A DNA stretch of 64,000 nt, taken from NCBI RefSeq assembly GCF_009832905.1, contig NZ_CP047135.1:2210001-2274000 (forward strand), in the 5' to 3' direction. The translations under genes were made by a program, and so were the position numbers. The DNA comes from Stenotrophomonas sp. 364 (GTDB lineage: Bacteria; Pseudomonadota; Gammaproteobacteria; Xanthomonadales; Xanthomonadaceae). The notes below the pieces were generated by a model. It saw nothing but the letters and a program-made list of their open reading frames with translations, made no database searches and was not told the origin of the DNA. Positions 52,358 through 64,000 of this stretch are shown here, piece by piece (within the stretch, counting starts at the first letter, position 1; the number at the start of each line of letters is the position of its first letter).

Positions 52358-52433
52358 GGGGCCATAGCTCAGCTGGGAGAGCGCCTGCATGGCATGCAGG
52401 AGGTCGGCGGTTCGATCCCGCCTGGCTCCACCA
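52358..52433 (+). tRNA. tRNA-Ala(GGC), copy 1
   Basis: 76 nt with encoded CCA. Acceptor GGGGCCA, anticodon loop ATGGCAT (anticodon GGC), T-loop TTCGATC. Identical to the other three copies. Confidence 0.97.
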
Positions 52434-52486
52434 CTTCAATCATTAGGCCGATTGGAAGTGCAGTGACAAAATTTGAAGTTTCGTGC

Positions 52487-52562
52487 GTCCCCATCGTCTA
52501 GAGGCCTAGGACATCACCCTTTCACGGTGGCGACCGGGGTTCGAATCCCCGTGGGGACGCCA
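52487..52562 (+). tRNA. tRNA-Glu(TTC), copy 1
   Basis: 76 nt with encoded CCA. Acceptor GTCCCCA, anticodon loop CTTTCAC (anticodon TTC), T-loop TTCGAATC. Confidence 0.97.
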
Positions 52563-52575
52563 ATCAAGAAGCAGA

Positions 52576-52608
52576 ACGCCCTGACCTCGGTCGGGGCGTT
52601 TTGTTTTT
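52576..52608 (+). terminator. Terminator after tRNA pair 1
   Basis: Hairpin CGCCCTGACC...GGTCGGGGCG followed by TTTTGTTTTT. Confidence 0.85.
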
Positions 52609-52671
52609 GCGGCGTGGCATTCGACCTTCGTTCGCAGCGAAAGATATTCATCGCGATGTCACACAAAACAC

Positions 52672-52700
52672 TTGGCGAATCCTTCACATCCGCGTAGAAT
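52672..52700 (+). promoter_or_regulatory. Promoter of second tRNA pair
   Basis: -35 TTGGCG, 17-bp spacer, -10 TAGAAT, 17 bp before the tRNA. Confidence 0.72.
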
Positions 52701-52717
52701 TGCGCCTCCAGCATCGT

Positions 52718-52793
52718 GGGGCCATAGCTCAGCTGGGAGAGCGCCTGCATGGCATGCAGGAGGTCGGCGGTTCGATCCCGCCTGGCTCCACCA
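52718..52793 (+). tRNA. tRNA-Ala(GGC), copy 2
   Basis: Sequence identical to copy 1, with encoded CCA. Confidence 0.97.
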
Positions 52794-52845
52794 CTCCGGA
52801 CCTTAGGCCGTTCGGAGGTGCTGAAAACATTGATGAGTTTTATGC

Positions 52846-52921
52846 GTCCCCATCGTCTAGAGGCCTAGGACATCACCCTTTCACGGTGGCGACCGGGGTT
52901 CGAATCCCCGTGGGGACGCCA
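52846..52921 (+). tRNA. tRNA-Glu(TTC), copy 2
   Basis: Identical to copy 1; the 52-nt spacer from tRNA-Ala differs from the other pairs. Confidence 0.97.
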
Positions 52922-52939
52922 CTCATCAACGACATCAGG

Positions 52940-52960
52940 CCCGGTCCGCCGGGTTTTTTT
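52940..52960 (+). terminator. Terminator after tRNA pair 2
   Basis: Stem CCCGG / CCGGG around TCCG, then seven T. Confidence 0.85.
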
Positions 52961-52991
52961 GTCACCGCTGCCCGCCGTTTTCGTCGTGGTC

Positions 52992-53020
52992 TTCCACAAA
53001 CGTGAACAGGCAGGTATACT
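52992..53020 (+). promoter_or_regulatory. Promoter of third tRNA pair
   Basis: -35 TTCCAC, 17-bp spacer, -10 TATACT. Confidence 0.65.
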
Positions 53021-53041
53021 AGGCGGCTTGCGGTACAACGT

Positions 53042-53117
53042 GGGGCCATAGCTCAGCTGGGAGAGCGCCTGCATGGCATGCAGGAGGTCGGCGGTTCGAT
53101 CCCGCCTGGCTCCACCA
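53042..53117 (+). tRNA. tRNA-Ala(GGC), copy 3
   Basis: Identical to copy 1, with encoded CCA. Confidence 0.97.
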
Positions 53118-53165
53118 CTTCTCCGGACACAGGCCGTCCGATAGAAGAAAAATTCGGTTTAACGC

Positions 53166-53241
53166 GTCCCCATCGTCTAGAGGCCTAGGACATCACCCTT
53201 TCACGGTGGCGACCGGGGTTCGAATCCCCGTGGGGACGCCA
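53166..53241 (+). tRNA. tRNA-Glu(TTC), copy 3
   Basis: Identical to copy 1. The 48-nt spacer from its tRNA-Ala is identical to that of pair 4. Confidence 0.97.
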
Positions 53242-53255
53242 GCTACAAACAACAG

Positions 53256-53279
53256 CCCCCGGCATTGCCGGGGGTTTTT
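53256..53279 (+). terminator. Terminator after tRNA pair 3
   Basis: Stem CCCCCGGC / GCCGGGGG around ATT, then TTTTT. Confidence 0.9.
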
Positions 53280-53293
53280 GTTTATGTGCCCCG

Positions 53294-53354
53294 GTAAATG
53301 TCGGCCATTGGCCGAAACGGCACATACCGGTAGATGCCGACCGTTGGTCGGCAT
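53294..53354. repeat. SMAG repeats between tRNA pairs 3 and 4
   Basis: Elements GTAAATGTCGGCCATTGGCC (from 53294) and GTAGATGCCGACCGTTGGTC (from 53330). Nothing else gene-like is seen up to the next promoter. Confidence 0.85.
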
Positions 53355-53420
53355 GGCGCATGCAGGACACCCTCGGCGCGCCGTCCAACAATCGGCATGC
53401 ACCGGAACGAAATAAAAAGC

Positions 53421-53449
53421 TTCCCATCCAGCAAAACCATCGCTATGAT
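53421..53449 (+). promoter_or_regulatory. Promoter of fourth tRNA pair
   Basis: -35 TTCCCA, 17-bp spacer, -10 TATGAT. Confidence 0.68.
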
Positions 53450-53471
53450 AGGCGGCTCGCAGCATCAACGT

Positions 53472-53547
53472 GGGGCCATAGCTCAGCTGGGAGAGCGCCT
53501 GCATGGCATGCAGGAGGTCGGCGGTTCGATCCCGCCTGGCTCCACCA
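53472..53547 (+). tRNA. tRNA-Ala(GGC), copy 4
   Basis: Identical to copy 1, with encoded CCA. Confidence 0.97.
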
Positions 53548-53595
53548 CTTCTCCGGACACAGGCCGTCCGATAGAAGAAAAATTCGGTTTAACGC

Positions 53596-53671
53596 GTCCC
53601 CATCGTCTAGAGGCCTAGGACATCACCCTTTCACGGTGGCGACCGGGGTTCGAATCCCCGTGGGGACGCCA
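53596..53671 (+). tRNA. tRNA-Glu(TTC), copy 4
   Basis: Identical to copy 1. Confidence 0.97.
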
Positions 53672-54345: not shown

Positions 54346-55302
54346 ATGTGTTACTCCGCCCAGATCCGCGCCGATTACACCAAGCTGGTGCGCGAGTACG
54401 GCGCCATGATGTCGCTGGACGAGTTCGCCCGGTTGTACGCCCATGATGCCGGCAAGCAGCGCCCGAAAACGCCCAAGGCGATGGATGACGGCTTTGCCGG
54501 CGCGCGCACCGCGCAGGGCCAGGACATCGTCGCGAAGATCCAGCAGTGGCATGCCGAGGAAATGCAGGCGCTGGACGCGGAGATCCGCGTGCAGGGCGAA
54601 CGCCGCGATGCCGCCCACGCCAGCCTGGCCAGGCGCCCTACGCAGAAGGCACGCAACGATGCGCGCATCGCCAGCAACCGCGTCGAACGCGCGCAGGCAC
54701 GGCTGGACGACCTGCGTCGCACCGGGCTGCTGCCGCGCGACAGCCGCATCTTTCCGGGCGTCTATGCACCGGTGATCGTGTCCGAGCGCGGCCAGCGCGT
54801 GATCAAGCCGATGCGTTATCAATGCCGCCTCCCGGACACGCCGGCCCGCAATGACACGCTGTACCCCGGCACCTACAACGCGCGCCGCGACAGCCTGGGC
54901 GGGTACTGGAAGCCCGCGTTCGGACATTGCCATGGCGTGGTGGTGGTCCAGTCGTTCTACGAACACGTGCCCCGGCATGCGCTTGAGCAACGCGCCCTGT
55001 CCCCCGGCGAGAAGGCCAGCAACGTAGTGCTGGAGTTCCGCCCACAGCCGCCACGCGACCTGCTCATCGCCTGCCTGTGGTCGGAATGGGAAGGACCGGA
55101 GGGCCGGTTGCTGTCGTTTGCGGCCATCACCGACGAACCGCCGCGCGATGTCGCCGCGGCCGGCCATGACCGCTGCATCATTCCGATCCGGCCGGACAAC
55201 CTGGATGCCTGGCTGAATCCGGACCCGAACGATCTGGAGGCGCTGTATCGCATCCTGGACGACCGCGAGCCGGTCAGTTTCGCCCACACCGAAGCGGCGT
55301 GA
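54346..55302 (+). CDS. SRAP/HMCES-type abasic-site protein with helical insert
   Basis: 318 aa. The catalytic Cys2 (MCYSAQ) follows Met1 directly. The partner residues Asn178 in YNARRD, Glu206 in QSFYEHV and His274 in HDRCIIPI are in the order known from YedK/HMCES, which cross-link to abasic sites in ssDNA. Between residues 55 and 130 lies a basic, helical, coiled-coil-like insert (for example KARNDARIASNRVERAQARL) not present in YedK (about 220 aa). A related but distinct SRAP branch. Confidence 0.88.
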   Translation: MCYSAQIRADYTKLVREYGAMMSLDEFARLYAHDAGKQRPKTPKAMDDGFAGARTAQGQDIVAKIQQWHAEEMQALDAEIRVQGERRDAAHASLARRPTQKARNDARIASNRVERAQARLDDLRRTGLLPRDSRIFPGVYAPVIVSERGQRVIKPMRYQCRLPDTPARNDTLYPGTYNARRDSLGGYWKPAFGHCHGVVVVQSFYEHVPRHALEQRALSPGEKASNVVLEFRPQPPRDLLIACLWSEWEGPEGRLLSFAAITDEPPRDVAAAGHDRCIIPIRPDNLDAWLNPDPNDLEALYRILDDREPVSFAHTEAA

Positions 55303-55311
55303 GCGCAGGGG

Positions 55312-55692
55312 TCAGCTGGCGACCGATGCGATCTGCAGCGCGCGTTCCAATGCCGCGTTCAGTTCCGCGGTGAGGTACGGCTTGGTCAGCATCACGCCGG
55401 TGCGGAAGACCGCCGGCAGGTGGTCCGGCGCCATGCCGGTGGCCAGCACGAATGGAATGCCACGGGCGCTCAAGGCGGCCGCGACCGGTTCACTGGTTTC
55501 GTTATTGGCCAGCCGGTAATCCAGCAGGGCCACCTGGGGCTCGGAGTCACCGAGCAGGCGCAGCGAGTCGGCAACCGACGCAGCGGGGCCGACGACGACC
55601 GCGCCGGACTGGCCCAGCTGCATCTGCAGCAGGGCCGCGCTCATTTCGTCGTTCTCGACCACCAGTACCCGAAGATCCTGCAATGCACTCAT
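55312..55692 (-). CDS. Stand-alone response regulator receiver
   Basis: 126 aa with only a receiver domain: acidic pair Glu13/Asp15, phospho-Asp58 in ALLDYRLAN, and Lys104 in LTKPYLTAEL. No output domain. Cognate kinase unknown; it may be a phosphate sink or a diffusible messenger, for example for a hybrid kinase. It is 19 nt (convergent) from the SRAP gene. Confidence 0.9.
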   Translation of the reverse strand: MSALQDLRVLVVENDEMSAALLQMQLGQSGAVVVGPAASVADSLRLLGDSEPQVALLDYRLANNETSEPVAAALSARGIPFVLATGMAPDHLPAVFRTGVMLTKPYLTAELNAALERALQIASVAS

Positions 55693-55816
55693 CCCGGCTC
55701 TCTGTATGGTTCAGCCCGGTGAGTATAACGTCCTGCCCGGATGAAGGCCGAACATCACATGAAGCATTCAGGGCTGCACAGATCTCCACAAGTTGTATAC
55801 ACTACGCGGCCAGCCA

Positions 55817-55903
55817 GCCGAAGTGGCGGAATCGGTAGACGCAGCGGACTCAAAATCCGCCGCCCTTAAAAGCGTGTGGGTTCGAGTCCCACCTTCGGCA
55901 CCA
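55817..55903 (+). tRNA. tRNA-Leu(CAA)
   Basis: 87 nt with a long variable arm and encoded CCA. Acceptor GCCGAAG / CTTCGGC, anticodon loop CTCAAAA (anticodon CAA). A TATACA -10-like hexamer lies about 15 bp upstream. No integrase gene or repeat of the 3' end nearby. Confidence 0.97.
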
Positions 55904-55977
55904 ATGGTTTGCGGGGTTTCTGGAAGGTCAGAGCCGCTCCGCAAAAAACGATACGCTCCGCACTCCCGGAGATGAGA

Positions 55978-55998
55978 CCCCGCTTCGGCGGGGTTTTT
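55978..55998 (+). terminator. Terminator after tRNA-Leu
   Basis: CCCCGC-TTCG-GCGGGG, a stable UUCG tetraloop hairpin, followed by TTTTT. Confidence 0.92.
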
Positions 55999-56200
55999 CG
56001 TTTCAGGGCTGGGGCGGCTTCAAGGCGTCGCGCAGCCGATGCAACTGCTGCGCCTCGCGCCGCAGCCGCTCCTGGTGCCGCTCGACCCACATCTCCGCCC
56101 CTCTCCCAGACCGCTCGCGCCTGCGCACGCCGATGCCATGCGCGTCGGTCAACGCGTGCTGTGAGGCATCGCCGGTGTGACCGCGGCGCCGGGCCGAGTT

Positions 56201-56214
56201 TCGAATTAGTTCGA
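56201..56214. promoter_or_regulatory. NNGAA-N4-TTCNN palindrome upstream of LuxR-type regulator
   Basis: TCGAA-TTAG-TTCGA, perfect 5-bp arms, 62 bp before the ATG. Its form matches the palindrome between the hybrid kinase and the autotransporter. Confidence 0.5.
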
Positions 56215-56276
56215 CGGGCGCGCTGCAAGCAAGCACCTACAGTAGATCGGCCGGCAGAGCTGCCCGAGGAGCGAAA

Positions 56277-56906
56277 ATGAGGTCGAATGCGCGCATTGTC
56301 GTCATGGACCGCCACGACCTGGTGCGGGTGGGCCTGCGTCGCTACCTTGCGCCGCTGGCCGGCGTGAGCGTGGTGGCCGATTTCGATGCGCCTGCCCCGC
56401 TGCTGCCCTACCTTCGCGCACATGCGGTGGACGTGCTGGTGCTCGATTGCTTCCAGCGCGAACACGACGGGCAGGCCGAACGCCTGTTGGCACAGCTCCA
56501 GCGCCTGACCGCAGCCAGGGTGGTGGTGTTCACCGCCGAATGCAGCGCCAGCGCCCATGCCATGTGCAAACGGGCCAGCGCCTACGCCTTTATCGACAAG
56601 CGCACGGCGCTGGATGAGGTCGTTGACACGCTGCGCAACGCCGCCCTGTCACGACCGGGTCCACCACGCGATGACGATGCAGCCTTCCTGCAGGCCGGGC
56701 TGCGCCGGCTGAGCGTGCAGGAGTTCCGCGTGCTCGGCCTGGTGGCCAGGGGCATGGGAACGGCGCAGATTTCTGACCGCCTGGCGCGCTCGCGCAGCAC
56801 CATCAGCACCCACAAGTGGAATGCGCTGGGCAAACTCCAGGTAGGCAGCGAACTGGAGTTCCTGCGGTTGCTGCCGCCGGATTTCCAGTGGCCGGAAACG
56901 CCCTGA
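56277..56906 (+). CDS. LuxR-type response regulator, first
   Basis: 209 aa. Receiver with Asp11/Asp14 and phospho-Asp57 in VLVLDCFQRE, Lys in YAFIDKRTAL, then a LuxR HTH (about 140-200; LSVQEFRVLGLVARGMGTAQ, SRSTISTHKWNALGKL). The HTH resembles RcsB/BvgA. GAGGAG lies 5 nt before the ATG. It is convergent with the second regulator; cognate kinase possibly the hybrid kinase downstream of that gene. Confidence 0.9.
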   Translation: MRSNARIVVMDRHDLVRVGLRRYLAPLAGVSVVADFDAPAPLLPYLRAHAVDVLVLDCFQREHDGQAERLLAQLQRLTAARVVVFTAECSASAHAMCKRASAYAFIDKRTALDEVVDTLRNAALSRPGPPRDDDAAFLQAGLRRLSVQEFRVLGLVARGMGTAQISDRLARSRSTISTHKWNALGKLQVGSELEFLRLLPPDFQWPETP

Positions 56907-56930
56907 CGAGGCCGCCGGCTCGCCGCATGC

Positions 56931-57599
56931 CTAACCCTTCTCGATCAGGCTGCGGACCTTGAACAGCTCGGCGTCGGTGCGGATGCCCAGCTTCTGGAAC
57001 CCGGACTTCTTCTGCGTGCTGATGGTGCTCATCGCACGCGAGAACTTGGCCGATATCTCGCTCGTGGACATGCCCTCCAGCGTGCACCGCAGCACCTCGT
57101 ACTCGCGCGGGGTCAGCGTCTCCTGGACCTGGCCGGGGACACTGCCGCGCGCCGGGGCACGGTCGCTCAGCTCGGCCAACTGCTGGCGCATGTCCGCCGG
57201 GAGGTAGGTCTTGCCGCGGGCGACCTGGCGGATCGCATCGATCAGTTCGTCCGCTCCCTGGCTCTTGGACAGGAAACCGCTCACCCCGGCCTGCAGGGCA
57301 AGGGAGACCGTGGCGGGATTGAAATGCGAGGACAGGACCAGCACGGCCGTGCGCGGATACCGCAGCCGAAGGGCCCGCAACAGGTTGATGCCATCCACAT
57401 CGTGGGGGCCCAGCGAGAAATCGACGATGGCCAGATGCACCGTTTGAGTGGTCGTGGCCAGTGCGTGGATCAGCTCACGCGCGGTGCTGTAGCTGCCGGC
57501 GATCTGAAACGCGGGCACACCTTGCAGGCGCCTTTGAATGCCCTCCAGCACGATCGGATGATCGTCCAGTAGCAGGATGCGGATAATGTCGTCGGGCAT
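56931..57599 (-). CDS. LuxR-type response regulator, RcsB/EvgA-like
   Basis: 222 aa. Receiver Asp12/Asp13, phospho-Asp60 in AIVDFSLGPHD, Lys112 in GFLSKSQGA. HTH TPREYEVLRCTLEGMSTSEI with SRAMSTISTQKKSGFQKLGI, where TISTQKKS is close to RcsB (TISSQKKS). It lies 142 nt downstream of the hybrid kinase on the same strand, so it is the natural response partner. A 12-bp palindrome TGATGTACATCA precedes it. Confidence 0.92.
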   Translation of the reverse strand: MPDDIIRILLLDDHPIVLEGIQRRLQGVPAFQIAGSYSTARELIHALATTTQTVHLAIVDFSLGPHDVDGINLLRALRLRYPRTAVLVLSSHFNPATVSLALQAGVSGFLSKSQGADELIDAIRQVARGKTYLPADMRQQLAELSDRAPARGSVPGQVQETLTPREYEVLRCTLEGMSTSEISAKFSRAMSTISTQKKSGFQKLGIRTDAELFKVRSLIEKG

Positions 57600-57650
57600 G
57601 ACGGCGCGCCTTGGGCAGGAGGGCTGATGCGGGGAACCTACACCAATTTG

Positions 57651-57662
57651 TGATGTACATCA
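57651..57662. promoter_or_regulatory. Palindrome upstream of RcsB-like regulator
   Basis: TGATGTACATCA is a perfect 12-bp palindrome 52 bp before the ATG. The bound protein is unknown. Confidence 0.45.
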
Positions 57663-57741
57663 TGCAATGCGGAAGACAGCCCTCACCTGACGCGGGGTCA
57701 CAGGGGGCACGGGCACAAGAATCTTGCCAGATGCGACATCC

Positions 57742-60132
57742 CTACCGCTTGACCAGGCGTTCACCGACCGCACCCAGGGTCTGCGCCAGCGCCTGCACCT
57801 GTTCCGCGTCCGGCCGTGCACCGGCCTTCCAGCACGACTCGATGCCCAAGGCCTGGGCGGCAAGCGCATCGCAGCCGAGCATCAGTGCCGCACCGCCGAG
57901 CCGATGGGCGTGGTGCTGGCCGGCCGCTGCGTCGTCGGCGTGCAGGGCGCGCTCGATGCCCGCCAGGTCTTCGCGCAGCAGTGCCACGTGATCGATAACA
58001 GCATCGGCTGCCGGCGCCGAATGCACACCGACCGGCGCATTGGGCGTGACCGGCCACAGCGCCAGGGTGCTGTTGAGTTCCTCCAGGCGCAGCGGTTTGC
58101 GCAGCACCCCGTCCATGCCGCTGGCCAGGCACGCCTGTAGATGCTCGGCACCGGTCGAGGCGGAAATGGCAATGATCGGCAGGTGGCTGCCGTGGGACGG
58201 CCGGGCGCGGATCCGGCGGGTGGTCTCGTAGCCGTCCATGCCCGGCATGTGGCAATCCATCAGGACCATGTCGAAGTCGGCGCTGTCCAGCGCCCGCAAC
58301 GCGGCCTCGCCACTGTCCACCAAGGTCGGACGCACGCCCAGTTCCAGCAACTGCTCGCGCACCAGGGCGCGGTTGCCGGGGTGGTCCTCCACCACCAGCA
58401 CACGCGCGCTGGCCGGCGCGACATCCGTACCTGGCCCGGATGCCGCACCGCCCCCGTCGCCGCCGTCCTGCAACTCCGGTGATCTGGCCATCAGCCCCAC
58501 TGGCACCGTGAAGGCGACCGTGGTGCCGGTGCCGGGAATGCTCTGCAGGGTGATCGTGCCCCCCATCAGCTCCACCAGCTCCCGGCAGATGGTCAGGCCC
58601 AGTCCGGTGCCGCCAAACTCGCGCGTGGTGGATTCATCGGCCTGCGAATAGGCATTGAACAGCCGCGCCTGCTGTTCCGGTGCGATCCCCACGCCCGTGT
58701 CGCTGACCTGCACGTGGAGCACGGCACCGTCTTTGCCGCGATCCAGGCGCGCATCGACATTGATGCAGCCGCGGCGGGTGAACTTGACAGCGTTGCCAAG
58801 CAGGTTGTTGAGCACCTGCCGCACCCGAGTCGGGTCCAGCACCACCAGTTGGTCGGTGTCCAGCGCCATCGCGAGTTTGATCGACAAGCCCTTGCTTTCC
58901 GCCCCGGGGCGCGCCAGGGCCACGGCCAGCGCCAGCAGCCGGGGCAGATCGGTCGGCAATCGCTCCAGGGTGAGCTTGCCGGCATCGAGTTTGGACAGGT
59001 CCAGCACGTTGTCGAGCAGATCGACCAGGGCCTCGGCGGCGAACGCAGCGCCCTCGGTGAACCCGCGCTGCCGGGCATCCAGCTGCGTCCGCGCGAGCAT
59101 CTCGATCGAGCCCACCATCGCATTGATCGGGGTGCGGATTTCATGGCTCATCGTGGCCAGGAAGCGAGCCGTCGCGCGCTCGCTGCGCACCGCGCGGCGG
59201 CGTGCCATGCGCGCGTGCCAGGCAAAAATGGACAGCAGGATCATGCCGAGGGTGGCCAGCAGCAGCTCGGTCCGGCGGTAATGGAGGATGGACCAGATCG
59301 AGGGCGCGCCGTAGTCGGCCTGCGACAGGTGGCGCTCGTACAGCACATCGCTTTCATGGGCGCTGATCGAATCGAGCGCCTTTTCCAGGATCGAATGCAG
59401 GAGCGGCTCGCTGGCGCGCACCCCCATCTGGGCCCGGTAGGGCGGCAGGTTGAGCATGCTGGCCACGCCCAGGCTGCGGCTGTATTTGCGCTGTAGCAGC
59501 GGCAACAGCGTGGACTCGGTCCCCACCGAGGCGTCGGCACGGCCGCCCAGCACCGCCTGCAGGCTCTCCTCCGGGCTGCCCACCTCGATCGGGATGACCC
59601 CCGGACGCAGATCGGTCAGGGTCTTCTGCACGTCCGGGCCACCACGGATGGCAATGCGCTTGCCACGCAGTGATTCTGCGCCGAACGTGGAATTGGCCTC
59701 GCCCTTGGTGACGAAAATCAGCGGACTGGCAAAGTACGCCTGGGTGTAGTGCAGCTGGTGGTTCACCTCGCTGCGCACGGTGGTGGGGCTGGCGTTGGGA
59801 AAGAAATCGACCTTGCCGGCAGCGAAGAGATCCTGCGACTGCTGCCAGGTCTCGGTGGGGATCAACTGGAAGCGCAGCCCGGTACGCTTGGAAACAGCAT
59901 CCAGATAGGCCGCGATCAGGCCGCGATATTCACCATCGACAATATCCTCCAACGGGCTGATATCCGGCGCGCCGGCGTAATAGACCACCGGATGCCGTGC
60001 CATCCAGGCCCGCTCTTCGGCGCTGAACTGCGGCACCCCCGCGCGCGCGGGAACCGCTGACGAAAGCGCGCCCAGCACTGCCAGAACGGTGGCCAGGCGC
60101 ACTCGCCGGGCGTTCTGCGTGGATGGCTGCAT
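57742..60132 (-). CDS. BvgS/EvgS-like hybrid sensor kinase
   Basis: 796 aa: signal peptide (about 1-31), one Venus-flytrap SBP-type sensor (about 40-275; KVDFFPNASPTTVRSEVNHQ), one transmembrane helix (288-306), His-kinase A with His330 in ATMSHEIRTPINAMVG, HATPase (LLGNAVKFTRRG, DTGVGIAPEQ, FGGTGLGLTI), receiver (Asp626 in VLMDCHMPGMDG, Lys679 in LRKPLR) and a C-terminal Hpt (His743 in HAHRLGGAALML). All four phosphorelay residues are intact. It lacks the second flytrap and the PAS domain of BvgS. It is divergent from the autotransporter gene. Confidence 0.94.
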   Translation of the reverse strand: MQPSTQNARRVRLATVLAVLGALSSAVPARAGVPQFSAEERAWMARHPVVYYAGAPDISPLEDIVDGEYRGLIAAYLDAVSKRTGLRFQLIPTETWQQSQDLFAAGKVDFFPNASPTTVRSEVNHQLHYTQAYFASPLIFVTKGEANSTFGAESLRGKRIAIRGGPDVQKTLTDLRPGVIPIEVGSPEESLQAVLGGRADASVGTESTLLPLLQRKYSRSLGVASMLNLPPYRAQMGVRASEPLLHSILEKALDSISAHESDVLYERHLSQADYGAPSIWSILHYRRTELLLATLGMILLSIFAWHARMARRRAVRSERATARFLATMSHEIRTPINAMVGSIEMLARTQLDARQRGFTEGAAFAAEALVDLLDNVLDLSKLDAGKLTLERLPTDLPRLLALAVALARPGAESKGLSIKLAMALDTDQLVVLDPTRVRQVLNNLLGNAVKFTRRGCINVDARLDRGKDGAVLHVQVSDTGVGIAPEQQARLFNAYSQADESTTREFGGTGLGLTICRELVELMGGTITLQSIPGTGTTVAFTVPVGLMARSPELQDGGDGGGAASGPGTDVAPASARVLVVEDHPGNRALVREQLLELGVRPTLVDSGEAALRALDSADFDMVLMDCHMPGMDGYETTRRIRARPSHGSHLPIIAISASTGAEHLQACLASGMDGVLRKPLRLEELNSTLALWPVTPNAPVGVHSAPAADAVIDHVALLREDLAGIERALHADDAAAGQHHAHRLGGAALMLGCDALAAQALGIESCWKAGARPDAEQVQALAQTLGAVGERLVKR

Positions 60133-60236
60133 GCGTATTACTCCGGCGGGGATCCCAACGTTACTGCCCGGCCCGGCCAGCTGCAATCGATGCGCATTTA
60201 TCCGCTCGCATACCTGCCCCGCGCCCGTGCGCAGTT

Positions 60237-60250
60237 TAGAAGTATTTCTA
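60237..60250. promoter_or_regulatory. RcsB-box-like palindrome between kinase and autotransporter
   Basis: TAGAA-GTAT-TTCTA has perfect 5-bp arms and resembles the RcsB/RcsAB box TAAGAATATTCCTA. It lies 97 bp upstream of the autotransporter ATG and about 105 bp from the kinase start, placed to act on both promoters. The RcsB-like HTH of the regulator nearby fits. Confidence 0.58.
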
Positions 60251-60346
60251 GATCCTTTGCTTCGGGCACCTCCTAGCATTCTCGCCATCGATACCGGCGC
60301 TGCTTTCCACCGCGCCAGCCGACTTTCCCAAACGAGGATGATCAAC

Positions 60347-62671
60347 ATGAATACCCCTCTCAAGGTTGCACTGATCGCCGCCGCGGTGTCGCTGGCAATG
60401 GCCGGCGCAGTCCAGGCCGCCAACGTCGGCCCCGGCCAGACCAAGGTAATCGCCGCCGGCGATGCCACCAACTGGTGGCACGTAAACAATGGCGTGCTGA
60501 TGGTGGGACCCGGTGCGAAGACCCGCAACGTCTCAACCAGCGACGGTGCGACGATCCGGTTTGACCATGCCGACGCCGAGCTGGACGGTTACTTCGGGAT
60601 CAGTATTTCCGACGCGAGCACGCTGGAGATGGTGGGGTCGACGGCCTACAACGGCGTCGAGCGCGCGCTGACCCTCGGTGTTGGCTACAGCCCCATCCAC
60701 GGCTACCGGGGGGGTACCGCCAGCATTATCTCCAGTACGCTCAGCGGCCTGGGCCTGGGCGCAAGCGTCAACAACGGCACGCTGCGCCTTGCCGACACCA
60801 CCCTGGAAGGCCGGGCCGATCCCACCACCACCGACATGTTCTCCGGCAACGGCCTTTGGCTGGTCTCGGGCGGCAAGGTGGATATCACCGAGGGCAGCCA
60901 GGTGGTCGGCGACAATCACGGCATCTGGTCCGAGTTCAACCTGGCCGGCGGCGTGAATCCCACCGGGATGGAGGTGGTGATCGATGCCTCCACCGTGGAA
61001 GGCCGTACTGGCGCAGCGATCTTCGTGCCGGACGATGTCAACCACCAGTCCGACCCGAGCGAGGTCAATTTCACCGTGCGCAACGGCGGGCAGCTCAAGG
61101 CCGGCAATGGCAACCTGCTCCAGGTGGACGCGACCGACGCCACCGTGGGCCTGCGCCTGGAAAACACCGCCCTTGTGGGCAACATCGTGAGCGCGGCAGG
61201 CAGCATCGTGGACGTCGCGCTGGCCGACGGTGCACGCCTGCAGGGCCGCATCCAGGGCGCCACCTCGCTGGCGCTGGCCGATTCGGTGTGGGCGCTCACC
61301 GGTGACAGCACGATAGGCGCACTTGCCAATGGCAGCGGCGGCCACATCGTGCTGGGCGATGGCAGTGCGCTGCACACCCTCACGGTGGCAGGCGATTACC
61401 ACGGCGACGGCGGCGCCATCACCTTCAACACCGTGTTGGCCGGCGACGATGCCGCGTCCGATCGCCTGGTGGTCGGCGGCGACACCAGCGGCCAGACCCA
61501 GGTCGTGGTCAACAACCTTGGCGGCCAGGGCGCCCAGACCGTGCAGGGCATCGCCCTGGTCGACGTGGGCGGCGCGTCCAACGGCACGTTCGACCTGGCC
61601 GGGCGTGCGGTCGGTGGGCAGTACGAGTACTTCCTGCGCAAGGATGCCGGCAATGGCAACTGGTACCTGCGCTCGGAACTGCCGACCCCGCCCAATCCGT
61701 GTGACGCCGATCCGAGCCTGCCCGACTGCACCACGGTCGTGCCCGTGCCGGTGCTCCGTCCCGAAGCAGGTGCCTACCTGGCCAACCTGCAGGCGGGCGG
61801 CAGCATGTTCGGTATTGGCTTCCAGGCGCGCAACGCCGGCCGCAGCACCGGCCGCGCCTGGGCGCGGGTGGACGGTGCACGCACCGGCTTCGATGCGGTG
61901 GAGCGCCAGCTGGATGTGCATGGCAACCGCCAGTCGCTCAACGTGGGCGTGGATCTGCTGAGGGGCCAGAACGGCAGCGCCGCCGGCGTCATGTTCGCCA
62001 CCGGCAATGCCAGCAGCACCGCCACCAACGCACTGACCGGTTACTACGCCCGCGGCAAGGTCCGCGGCAACGCGGCCGGTATCTATGCGACTTGGCGTGC
62101 CGGCAACGCAGAGGATGCCAATGCCGGCTTCCACCTGGACGGTTCGCTGCAGCGTGCCCGGTTCCGCAACAGCGTGGACGGCCTGGCACTTGCCAGCGAA
62201 CGCTACGATAGCGGCGCGTGGCAGGGTGCGATCGAGGCCGGTCAGGCCTTCGGCATCCATCGCTCGGCCACCGCGCGCCTCTACCTGGAACCGTACCTGC
62301 AGGTCGGCCGTACCCGCTGGGACGATGTGCGCCATACCGAGGCCAACGGCACGGTGGTCACCGCCGGCGACGCAGACGGCACCTTCGGTCGGGTCGGGCT
62401 TCGACTGTCGGGCGTGTCCCAGTGGGGCGAGGGCGCGGTCCAGGTGCAGCCCTATGTCAGCGCCAACTGGCTGCACGATGGCACCAACCGCACCGTGCAT
62501 ATGGATGGTCAGGCCATCCAGGCCCGCATTCCGCAGGGTCGCGCGGAATTCAGCGGCGGCGCATCCCTGCGCTTTGGCAACGGCTGGAGCGCGTCGGCCG
62601 GCCTCACCCTGCAGCACGCGGCGGGCTACCACCAGACCAGCGCTCAGCTGGGCATGAGCTACACCTGGTAA
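60347..62671 (+). CDS. Autotransporter (type Va) with pertactin-like passenger
   Basis: 774 aa. Signal peptide MNTPLKVALIAAAVSLAMAG (cleavage near VQAA). The passenger (about 25-480) is a beta-helix type with repeated Asn/Gly/Ser/Thr-rich turns such as NNGTLRLADTTLEGR and SGGKVDITEGSQVVGDNHG. The junction PNPCDADPSLPDCTT has the common paired Cys. A C-terminal beta-barrel (about 500-774) ends in LGMSYTW with a terminal Trp. No protease triad or RGD is evident; an adhesin role is likely. GAGG lies 9 nt before the ATG. Confidence 0.93.
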   Translation: MNTPLKVALIAAAVSLAMAGAVQAANVGPGQTKVIAAGDATNWWHVNNGVLMVGPGAKTRNVSTSDGATIRFDHADAELDGYFGISISDASTLEMVGSTAYNGVERALTLGVGYSPIHGYRGGTASIISSTLSGLGLGASVNNGTLRLADTTLEGRADPTTTDMFSGNGLWLVSGGKVDITEGSQVVGDNHGIWSEFNLAGGVNPTGMEVVIDASTVEGRTGAAIFVPDDVNHQSDPSEVNFTVRNGGQLKAGNGNLLQVDATDATVGLRLENTALVGNIVSAAGSIVDVALADGARLQGRIQGATSLALADSVWALTGDSTIGALANGSGGHIVLGDGSALHTLTVAGDYHGDGGAITFNTVLAGDDAASDRLVVGGDTSGQTQVVVNNLGGQGAQTVQGIALVDVGGASNGTFDLAGRAVGGQYEYFLRKDAGNGNWYLRSELPTPPNPCDADPSLPDCTTVVPVPVLRPEAGAYLANLQAGGSMFGIGFQARNAGRSTGRAWARVDGARTGFDAVERQLDVHGNRQSLNVGVDLLRGQNGSAAGVMFATGNASSTATNALTGYYARGKVRGNAAGIYATWRAGNAEDANAGFHLDGSLQRARFRNSVDGLALASERYDSGAWQGAIEAGQAFGIHRSATARLYLEPYLQVGRTRWDDVRHTEANGTVVTAGDADGTFGRVGLRLSGVSQWGEGAVQVQPYVSANWLHDGTNRTVHMDGQAIQARIPQGRAEFSGGASLRFGNGWSASAGLTLQHAAGYHQTSAQLGMSYTW

Positions 62672-62755
62672 TCCGCGAACCGTCCGCATGCGTTCGACAT
62701 GCGGTCGTCGGCGGGCCTTCGCCGAGGGACAAGGGTGTCCCACGCTGATTGAAGC

Positions 62756-62786
62756 AAAACGGCCGGATCGTCGACCCGGCCGTTTT
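62756..62786. terminator. Bidirectional terminator between autotransporter and MCP genes
   Basis: AAAACGGCCGG / CCGGCCGTTTT hairpin, with A- and T-tracts that serve both convergent genes. Confidence 0.88.
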
Positions 62787-62813
62787 GTGTTCATGAGCCC
62801 GGCGCCGCCCAGC

Positions 62814-64000
62814 TCACACTACCCGCAACGTGGGCTGCCCGGGGCTGGGGCGGGCCGCCCCCCTGGTCGCCTCCACCCGGAACGCCGCCACTGTGTGCAG
62901 CAACTGGGTGGCCTGCTCTTCCATGCTGCGCGCGGCGGCGGATGCCTCTTCCACCAGCGCGGCATTCTGCTGCGTGCCTTCGTCGATGTGGTCGACCGCC
63001 TGGTGAATCTGCCCGATGCTCTCGCTCTGCTGCTGGGCCACCGCACTGATCTCGCTGATCAACGCACTGACCCGCTTCACGTTGACCACGATCTCGTCCA
63101 TGGTGCGCCCGGCGCTCTCGACCTGGCCGGTGCCGGCGCCGACCTTCTCCACCGAATCGGCGATCAACTGCTTGATCTCCTTGGCCGCGCCCGCCGAACG
63201 CTGCGACAGCGACCGGATCTCCGAGGCAACCACCGCAAAGCCACGGCCATGCTCACCGGCCCGCGCCGCTTCCACCGCCGCGTTGAGCGCCAGGATGTTG
63301 GTCTGGAAGGCGATGCCGTCGATGACCGCGATGATGTCCACGATCCGACGCGACGACTCGTTGATCAGCGCCATCGTACACACCACTTCGTGCACGACAT
63401 GGCCGCCCTGCGCGGCCACGTCCACCGCGCCGCTGGCCAGTTCGCTGGCCTGACGGGCGTTGGTCGCGGTCTGCTGCACGGTGGCGGTCAGACCCTTCAT
63501 CGAGACCGCGGTTTCTTCCAGCGATGCGGCCTGCTGTTCGGTGCGCACCGACAGGTCGCTGTTGCCTTCGGCAATCTCGCTGGCGCCCACCGCGATGGTG
63601 TCGGCAGCGAACTTGATCTGCGCGATGATCGCCGCCATCGCCTCCACCAGTGCATTGATGCCCTCGCACAGCTCGGCGATCGGGCCGTTCTTGTCCTCAG
63701 TGGCGATATGCCCGGTGAGGTCGCCACCCTTGGCTGCGGCCACCACCTCGCGGGTCTGGGCCACGGCCTGCTGCATGGCCAGGCTGTCACGCACCTGGGC
63801 GGTGATGTCGGTGGCGTACTTGACCACTTTGAACGGGCGGCCGCTCATGTCCAGGATCGGGTTGTACGACGCCTGGATCCACACCTCGCGGCTGCCCTTG
63901 CCGAAGCGGCGATACTGGCCTGCGTCATACTCGCCACGGCCCAGCTTTTCCCAGAACTGGCGGTACTCCGCGCTCTGTCGGTAGTCGGGTTCAACGAACA
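62814..64000 (-). CDS. Methyl-accepting chemotaxis protein with PAS domain, C-terminal part
   Basis: The frame continues past the right window edge; 394 codons are visible. A PAS domain is at the visible N-terminus ([32 protein letters not shown]), then a HAMP-like stretch ([20 protein letters not shown]) and the MCP signalling domain with the conserved hairpin tip [33 protein letters not shown]. No transmembrane helix is visible in this part, so it might be a cytoplasmic, Aer-like or BdlA-like receptor. The start lies outside the window. Confidence 0.92.

Follow-up and report, generated by a model that had tools for sequence, protein, structure and literature searches.

A small autotransporter island in Stenotrophomonas sp. 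364 with its own phosphorelay, two LuxR-type regulators and a shared operator-like palindrome

What controls an autotransporter gene that shares a compact locus with a hybrid sensor kinase and two LuxR-type response regulators? The question is raised by a stretch of 64,000 nucleotides (nt) from Stenotrophomonas sp. 364 (NZ_CP047135.1, positions 2,210,001 to 2,274,000), called the window below for its whole length, in which an insert of ~7 kb with four genes (here RR2, RR1, HK and AT) lies between a tRNA-Leu gene and a chemotaxis gene. The same short palindromic site precedes the autotransporter gene AT and one of the regulator genes, RR2, so the cassette probably controls itself. A first-pass annotation had proposed a local circuit using these palindromes, with the second regulator as a possible target. 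As far as a comparison of sequences goes, this proposal gains strong support from the sites and spacing in a second genome, from their absence at 29 control loci and from a genome-wide count of only two matches. The elements of the locus are as follows.

56200..56214, plus strand: operator-like palindrome T-TCGAA-TTAG-TTCGA (TCGAATTAGTTCGA) before RR2, from the sequence
56238..56243, plus strand: −10-like hexamer TACAGT before RR2, 37 nt from the palindrome start, from the sequence; putative promoter element
56277-56906, plus strand: RR2, atypical response regulator of the LuxR/NarL type (Pfam Response_reg and GerE, alignment)
56931-57599, minus strand: RR1, RcsB-like LuxR-type response regulator (Pfam, NCBIfam, structure relatives, alignment)
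57742-60132, minus strand: HK, hybrid sensor kinase of 796 amino acids (aa) (Pfam domains, relay residues by sequence, hydropathy)
60236..60250, plus strand: operator-like palindrome T-TAGAA-GTAT-TTCTA (TAGAAGTATTTCTA) between HK and AT, from the sequence
60274..60279, plus strand: −10-like hexamer TAGCAT before AT, 37 nt from the palindrome start, from the sequence; putative promoter element
60347-62671, plus strand: AT, type Va autotransporter of 774 aa (Pfam AC_1 and Pertactin, TIGR01414)

These coordinates confirm the gene layout of the first-pass annotation: RR1 starts 142 nt past the end of HK on the same strand, a second LuxR regulator follows, and AT is divergent. RR2 and RR1 stand tail to tail with 24 bp between their ends.

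The cores of the two palindromes begin at 56201 and 60237. The 64-kb window contains 131 perfect palindromes with the form 5-N4-5, which rules out that the two are notable merely as palindromes. The GAA-N4-TTC form that they share, already remarked on in the first-pass annotation, is restricted to this pair, with GAA...TTC as inner arms in only these 2 of the 131. The search through the genome that had been suggested for this motif gives a divided answer. The pattern TMGAAN4TTCKA is not enriched, since it occurs at 6 places compared to 8 for the reversed-pattern control. The 15-nt pattern TTMGAAN4TTCKA, which includes the T preceding both cores, is found at exactly 2 places in the 4.84-Mb genome, both inside the block. 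At the four other TMGAAN4TTCKA places of this genome, a TANNNT hexamer at +37 (37 nt from the first core base) is present in 0/8 orientations. The confinement of the 15-nt motif to the block and the lack of the hexamer at the other places rule out a large regulon.

The evidence that carries the finding comes from the only other block. At a threshold of E 1e-150, HK is found in 2/91 genomes of the genus, the own genome and G069, and its absence from the remaining 89 marks the block as an accessory cassette; in G069, the one relative that has it, the block is kept together. There, HK (64-65% identity to the window), RR1 (69%) and RR2 (45%) are arranged tail to tail as in the window, in another part of the genome, together with two autotransporter genes, the intact AT-a and the interrupted AT-b, which lie upstream of HK in the same direction. 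Between the two blocks, the regulators are constant, and the autotransporter genes and their orientation vary. All four promoters of the G069 block bear the site, one of them in imperfect form: TAGAAGTTCTTCGA lies 74 bp ahead of the ATG of AT-a, TCGAAGGAATTCGA lies 73 bp upstream of AT-b, TCGAATAATTTCGA precedes HK within a 22-bp inverted repeat with 9-base arms, and TCGAAATCGTTCGG is located 70 bp upstream of RR2.

All six sites, two in the window and four in G069, read TTMGAA-N4-TTCKR, and the T precedes the core in 6/6 cases on the side facing away from the target gene. For the palindrome at 60236..60250, this T and the −10-like hexamer are directed toward AT. A TANNNT hexamer starts at a distance of exactly 37 nt from the first core base in four of the six promoters: TACAGT (RR2), TAGCAT (AT) and TATCGT before both AT-a and AT-b, the latter two being 2/4 of the G069 promoters. 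With a TANNNT background of 1.5% per position, the probability that at least two of the four G069 sites show the hexamer at the spacing set by the window sites is ~0.0013. Apart from these features, the six promoters differ (17-47% over the 60 bp downstream), which means that the sites do not derive from a single promoter copied recently. If the hexamer is the −10 element, with its first base at −12, the centre of the palindrome would lie near −42.5, beside RNA polymerase. In the window, the bases 17 nt ahead of the two hexamers, CGGGCG and GATCCT, do not resemble TTGACA, which leaves the AT and RR2 promoters without a TTGACA-like −35 element at the usual spacing. A consensus promoter scan of 55300-62900 shows 0 promoter-like sites.

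Relatives of AT are common, with matches in 57/91 genus genomes at 1e-60. Loci were obtained for 30 of the AT matches, and all apart from the own locus, 29 from genomes without an HK match, served as controls, scanned from −400 to +60 of the match start. The site is found at none of the 29 control loci outside the blocks, in comparison to 3/3 autotransporter genes within them (Fisher P, 0.0002). The promoters of 25 controls are surely covered, because their matches start at residue 12 or earlier; the remaining four matches (L115-L118) may fall short of the promoter, and with 25 controls P is 0.0003. No site lies near four further autotransporter genes (L132, L133, L135) or near the second autotransporter gene of the own genome (L130; 380167-382521), whose product is 41% identical to AT. 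The 15-nt pattern is present at 89 places in 59 of the other 89 genus genomes; none of these places has another within 20 kb, and the smallest distance is 51 kb (G064), in a set in which many assemblies are fragmented. G069 contains the pattern at 4 places, 3 of which are within the block. At eight further motif places chosen by hand from the list, in G069 and seven other genomes, TANNNT at +37 occurs in 0/8. First-order Markov copies of both blocks never reached the observed site counts in 300 runs each.

HK shows, in Pfam, one SBP_bac_3 (VFT) stretch at residues 57-269, followed by HisKA, HATPase_c, Response_reg and Hpt, with a transmembrane (TM) segment at about 289-307 by hydropathy. This corresponds to the BvgS-type layout of periplasmic VFT, TM, HisKA, HATPase_c, REC and Hpt. 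The relay residues described in the first-pass annotation are in place within these domains: H330 (SHEIRTP), D626 (VLMDCHMPG) and H743 (HAHRLGG). The label BvgS/EvgS-like is appropriate for the layout and inappropriate in three other respects: Pfam recognises a single VFT domain in place of the tandem pair, no Pfam match to a PAS domain is found between TM and HisKA, and the score against the NCBIfam EvgS equivalog is 246.5 bits with a cut-off of 1995. Domain content and model scores rule out HK as BvgS proper or as EvgS. In the set of PMC5829827, BvgS-type kinases carry two tandem VFT domains, and PAS is absent in about 30% of the homologues.

RR1 contains all five receiver residues (D12, D13, D60, S90 and K112). 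RcsB is both its best NCBIfam model and its best relative among solved structures; the model score of 109 bits lies far under the cut-off of 235, and RR1 as RcsB proper is rejected. The base contacts of RcsB in the recognition helix, K180 and S184 (PMC5829831), are replaced in RR1 by S and T when the RcsB numbering is placed on the alignment. The receiver of RR2 shows D11, R12, D57, T86 and K108, with D, T/S and K retained and the second metal-binding acid changed to R or Q in 5/5 aligned RR2 sequences. Under the definition given in PMC12632262, by which the loss of one or more of the five conserved residues makes a receiver a pseudo-receiver, RR2 is classed from its residues as a pseudo-receiver, i.e., an atypical regulator. 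The recognition-helix residues S, T, S and K are common to RR1 and RR2 in 7/7 sequences (2 RR1 and 5 RR2), with the core S-T-[IV]-S-[TA]-x-K, which suggests that the two regulators read the same half-site. RR2 is rare: it is found in 2/398 order genomes, in 1/369 class genomes (the own genome) and as four proteins in a large protein database: a form of the own RR2 with 99% identity and three more (P0002, P0003 and P0004) that are 51-54% identical. A search of plasmids gave no RR2 match.

Taken together, the most likely circuit would lead from HK to RR1, from RR1 to the sites and from the sites to AT and RR2, with RR2 acting back at the same sites. Here, the VFT domain would read a ligand or the state of the envelope and set HK in the kinase or phosphatase mode, followed by a transfer of phosphate from H330 to D626, H743 and finally D60 of RR1. 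Once phosphorylated, RR1 dimers would occupy TTMGAA-N4-TTCKA, with its centre near −42.5, and bring RNA polymerase to the promoters of AT and RR2, plus HK in G069. RR2, made under the control of RR1, would then act on the same sites as a heterodimer partner or competitor. The block may accordingly be pictured as a portable, self-governing adhesin module in which RR1 activates AT and the pseudo-receiver partner RR2 from one operator type at −42.5 and in which autotransporter genes are swappable by acquiring this operator; this picture is tentative, a possibility that falls somewhat short of probable. The same reservation applies to the pairing of RR2 with RR1 on the operators, as a feed-forward or feedback partner like RcsA or WhiI, and to the idea that a new host acquires target, sensor and memory all at once.

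Several observations count against a self-controlling cassette. The set is known from two genomes only, which limits the comparison to six sites. In G069, the HK and RR2 sites lack TANNNT at +37 (the HK promoter shows TACGGT at 28), and the RR2 site is imperfect; on the HK side of the intergenic region in the window, such a hexamer at +37 is likewise missing. AT-b carries in-frame stops, so one of the G069 targets may be dead. The fourth 15-nt match of G069 lies inside an open reading frame (ORF) at 2327881, and the GAA-N4-TTC core with imperfect arms is found in 5/29 controls. The probabilities are partly post hoc, because the same sites were used to refine the motif. A further site, TTCGAATTCGTTCTA, stands 72 bp before an autotransporter gene of G037 (L146 7261-7275), a genome with no HK or RR2 match. 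This gene is interrupted by an in-frame stop and lacks TANNNT at +37; it is outside the 29 controls, and counting it in gives a Fisher P of 0.0007 instead of 0.0002. The 19.5 kb read at this locus contain no RR1 or RR2 match, a kinase core with 37% identity to HK over 241 aa at a distance of ~7 kb, and ORFs of which two look like an unrelated regulator-kinase pair. The G037 site may be an orphaned, decaying target, or it may be due to chance.

The alternative that survives best, itself rather unlikely, is that RR2 and not RR1 reads the palindromes and controls itself and AT, with RR1 acting elsewhere. RR2 (2/398 order genomes) follows the sites no less closely than HK (2/91 genus genomes), its recognition-helix core equals that of RR1, and the site precedes RR2 in both blocks. 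A pseudo-receiver, however, would not relay the signal of the kinase as a typical receiver does, the site at the HK promoter of G069 fits autoregulation by RR1, and the HK-RR1 pair would be left without a visible target in the block. There is also a slim chance that RR1 represses at the sites, or both represses and activates, with RR2 as an anti-repressor or off-switch. The position of the site relative to the putative −10 element would also suit repression by covering the −35 region, and the consensus scan without promoter-like sites is in line with this, but a repressor leaves the missing −35 element unexplained, and the homodimer sites described for BvgA and RcsB at promoters under activation lie beside −35 or upstream of it (PMC7250471, PMC5651002). 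Finally, that the palindromes are chance or unrelated (e.g., sites of a housekeeping regulator) and the genes mere neighbours is very improbable, for although 5-N4-5 palindromes abound in the window and TMGAAN4TTCKA is not enriched genome-wide, all four promoters of the second and only other block, which lies at another genomic place, bear a matching site (two with the shared spacing), the 29 relatives of AT elsewhere have none, and the Markov copies fell short of the observed counts in every run.

If the circuit with RR1 as the activator of AT and RR2 is true, the autotransporter travels with its own phosphorelay rather than being wired into the regulon of the host, and a specific, cheaply testable operator would be at hand for an RcsB-like regulator outside the enterobacteria. 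With two regulators and three or four promoters, the block would also be a compact natural case for the role of a pseudo-receiver regulator that shares its recognition helix with a phosphorylated neighbour.

AT shows the parts of a type Va autotransporter: a signal peptide (judged by eye), a short passenger, an AC_1 autochaperone (96 bits; cut-off, 27) and a C-terminal β-barrel (TIGR01414, 265 bits; cut-off, 16). Its relatives among solved structures are 4mee, a diffuse adherence adhesin, and IcsA. The autochaperone and the type Va barrel are shared with AIDA-I- and IcsA-type autotransporters; unlike these, AT has a passenger of only roughly 300 aa, in which Pfam recognises no enzymatic domain. 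By analogy with its autotransporter class, AT is a putative adhesin. Pertactin is an autotransporter as well.

Compared to described systems, the block is a mobile variant of the BvgAS/Rcs theme and not a new class. As in BvgAS of Bordetella, a VFT sensor kinase with a HisKA, REC and Hpt phosphorelay is combined with a LuxR-type regulator (PMC5829827), and the promoters of surface adhesins bear few sites beside the core promoter; the adhesins under BvgAS control include pertactin (PMC7250471, PMC5829827). Unlike in BvgAS, HK has one VFT domain instead of two and no PAS domain, the gene order is HK and then RR1, a second, pseudo-receiver regulator is present, and the target gene is located inside the same small island. 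The BvgA site is an inverted heptad.

The likeness to Rcs consists in RR1, nearest to RcsB in NCBIfam models and solved structures, and in an auxiliary LuxR-type partner: RcsA, whose gene is autoregulated by the heterodimer (PMC5651002), would have its counterpart in RR2. The differences are the score of RR1 (109 versus the RcsB cut-off of 235), the lack of a separate RcsD and the exchange of K180/S184 for S/T. The resemblance of the palindromes to the RcsB box, suggested in the first-pass annotation, is weak, as the half-sites TTAGGAA / TCTAAGA of flhDC in PMC5829831 differ from TTMGAA-N4-TTCKR.

A further precedent is BldM-WhiI from Streptomyces, two atypical regulators of which BldM binds a palindrome as a homodimer and WhiI, which is without one of two adjacent metal-binding aspartates and without a lysine, forms a heterodimer with BldM (PMC4125116). 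In contrast to the island regulators, these two are developmental orphans, whiI is switched on by the sigma factor WhiG and not by BldM, the joint BldM-WhiI site is not palindromic (PMC4125116), and RR2 keeps its lysine. A heterodimer of RR2 with RR1 is putative; what the two visibly share is recognition-helix residues. Literature searches found nothing that joins Stenotrophomonas, an autotransporter and BvgA or a hybrid histidine kinase two-component system, and nothing on RcsB together with a BvgA consensus palindrome; the system is not claimed to be unpublished.

More distant relatives of the parts show other arrangements. At 1e-130, HK is found in 3/395 family genomes, the third being G023. 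The G023 kinase (40%) is rejected as a second case: the 19 kb examined there show neither RR1 nor RR2 matches, a TMGAA site is missing as well, and the gene beside the kinase looks like one for a TonB-type receptor. In L132 and L133 (G073 and G037), two and three autotransporter genes stand in tandem, with products 49-52% identical to AT and no HK or RR matches in the stretches read. Six RR-HK relatives (L005, L006 and L126-L129) contain no TMGAA-N4-TTCKA; they show three perfect N4 palindromes with GAA...TTC and other end bases, and the Dyella RR gene contains one of these. In Variovorax boronicumulans (L005 5206-5221), the palindrome GTTCGAAAATTCGAAC lies upstream of an RR1-HK pair (49% identical) and has the same half-site with arms 2 rather than 4 bases apart. 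In Dyella nitratireducens (L006 2925-8349), an RR1 relative has an HK relative on either side, 45% and 38% identical and encoded on opposite strands. Plasmids carry HK relatives in five records; of four neighbourhoods fetched, the three with annotation were examined. On a Pantoea plasmid (L127 5522-18202), two tandem HK-type genes, annotated as ATP-binding protein, stand with a regulator, and genes for a fimbrial subunit, chaperone and usher lie a few kb past them; no fimbrial genes were seen near the plasmid HK relatives of Janthinobacterium and B. ambifaria. Viral contigs contain eight loci with regulators of 24-31% identity.

The borders of the insert in the window can be given as follows.

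55904 to about 62867: accessory island
55817..55903, plus strand: tRNA-Leu (CAA), left island border (ARAGORN)
62814..63998, running beyond the window end, minus strand: methyl-accepting chemotaxis protein (MCP), right island border (Pfam and NCBIfam models)

There is good reason, short of certainty, to regard the segment from 55904 to ~62867 as a small accessory island with an autotransporter and a control circuit of its own. The insertion site was compared in five fetched stretches of relatives (including G029, G024, G045, G071 and G021). In G029, DNA similarity to the window ends with the tRNA at 55903 and restarts at 62868 within the MCP gene, with just 124 bp between the two stretches and the end of the MCP gene ~50 bp from tRNA-Leu. 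G029 thus shows the empty site, tRNA-Leu and MCP adjacent without insert, as is typical of a tRNA-associated island. In G024 and G045, two other species, ~1.7 kb of different DNA occupies the site, and in G071 and G021, the receptor gene is not beside the matched tRNA. The island has no integrase and no room for one, because the gaps between its four genes are at most 373 bp. Border direct repeats (att) were likewise not found, with no common word of 9-20 bases between 55851-56010 and 62641-62900. The G+C content of the island (67.3%) is close to that of the window (67.8%). The G069 block adjoins genes that read like minor type IV pilins, and no tRNA is present in the 19 kb read around it.

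The ~1.7-kb DNA at the tRNA-Leu/MCP site of G024 and G045 (L092 2059-3493; L093 2248-3687) reads, from its translation alone, like a gene for a membrane GGDEF protein, divided into two ORFs in G024 (L092). A receiver-only protein at 55312-55692, below the Pfam cut-off, is encoded beside tRNA-Leu in the window and also next to it in G029, G024 and G045. Farther upstream, 52358-53671 contains four consecutive tRNA-Ala(GGC)/tRNA-Glu(TTC) pairs.

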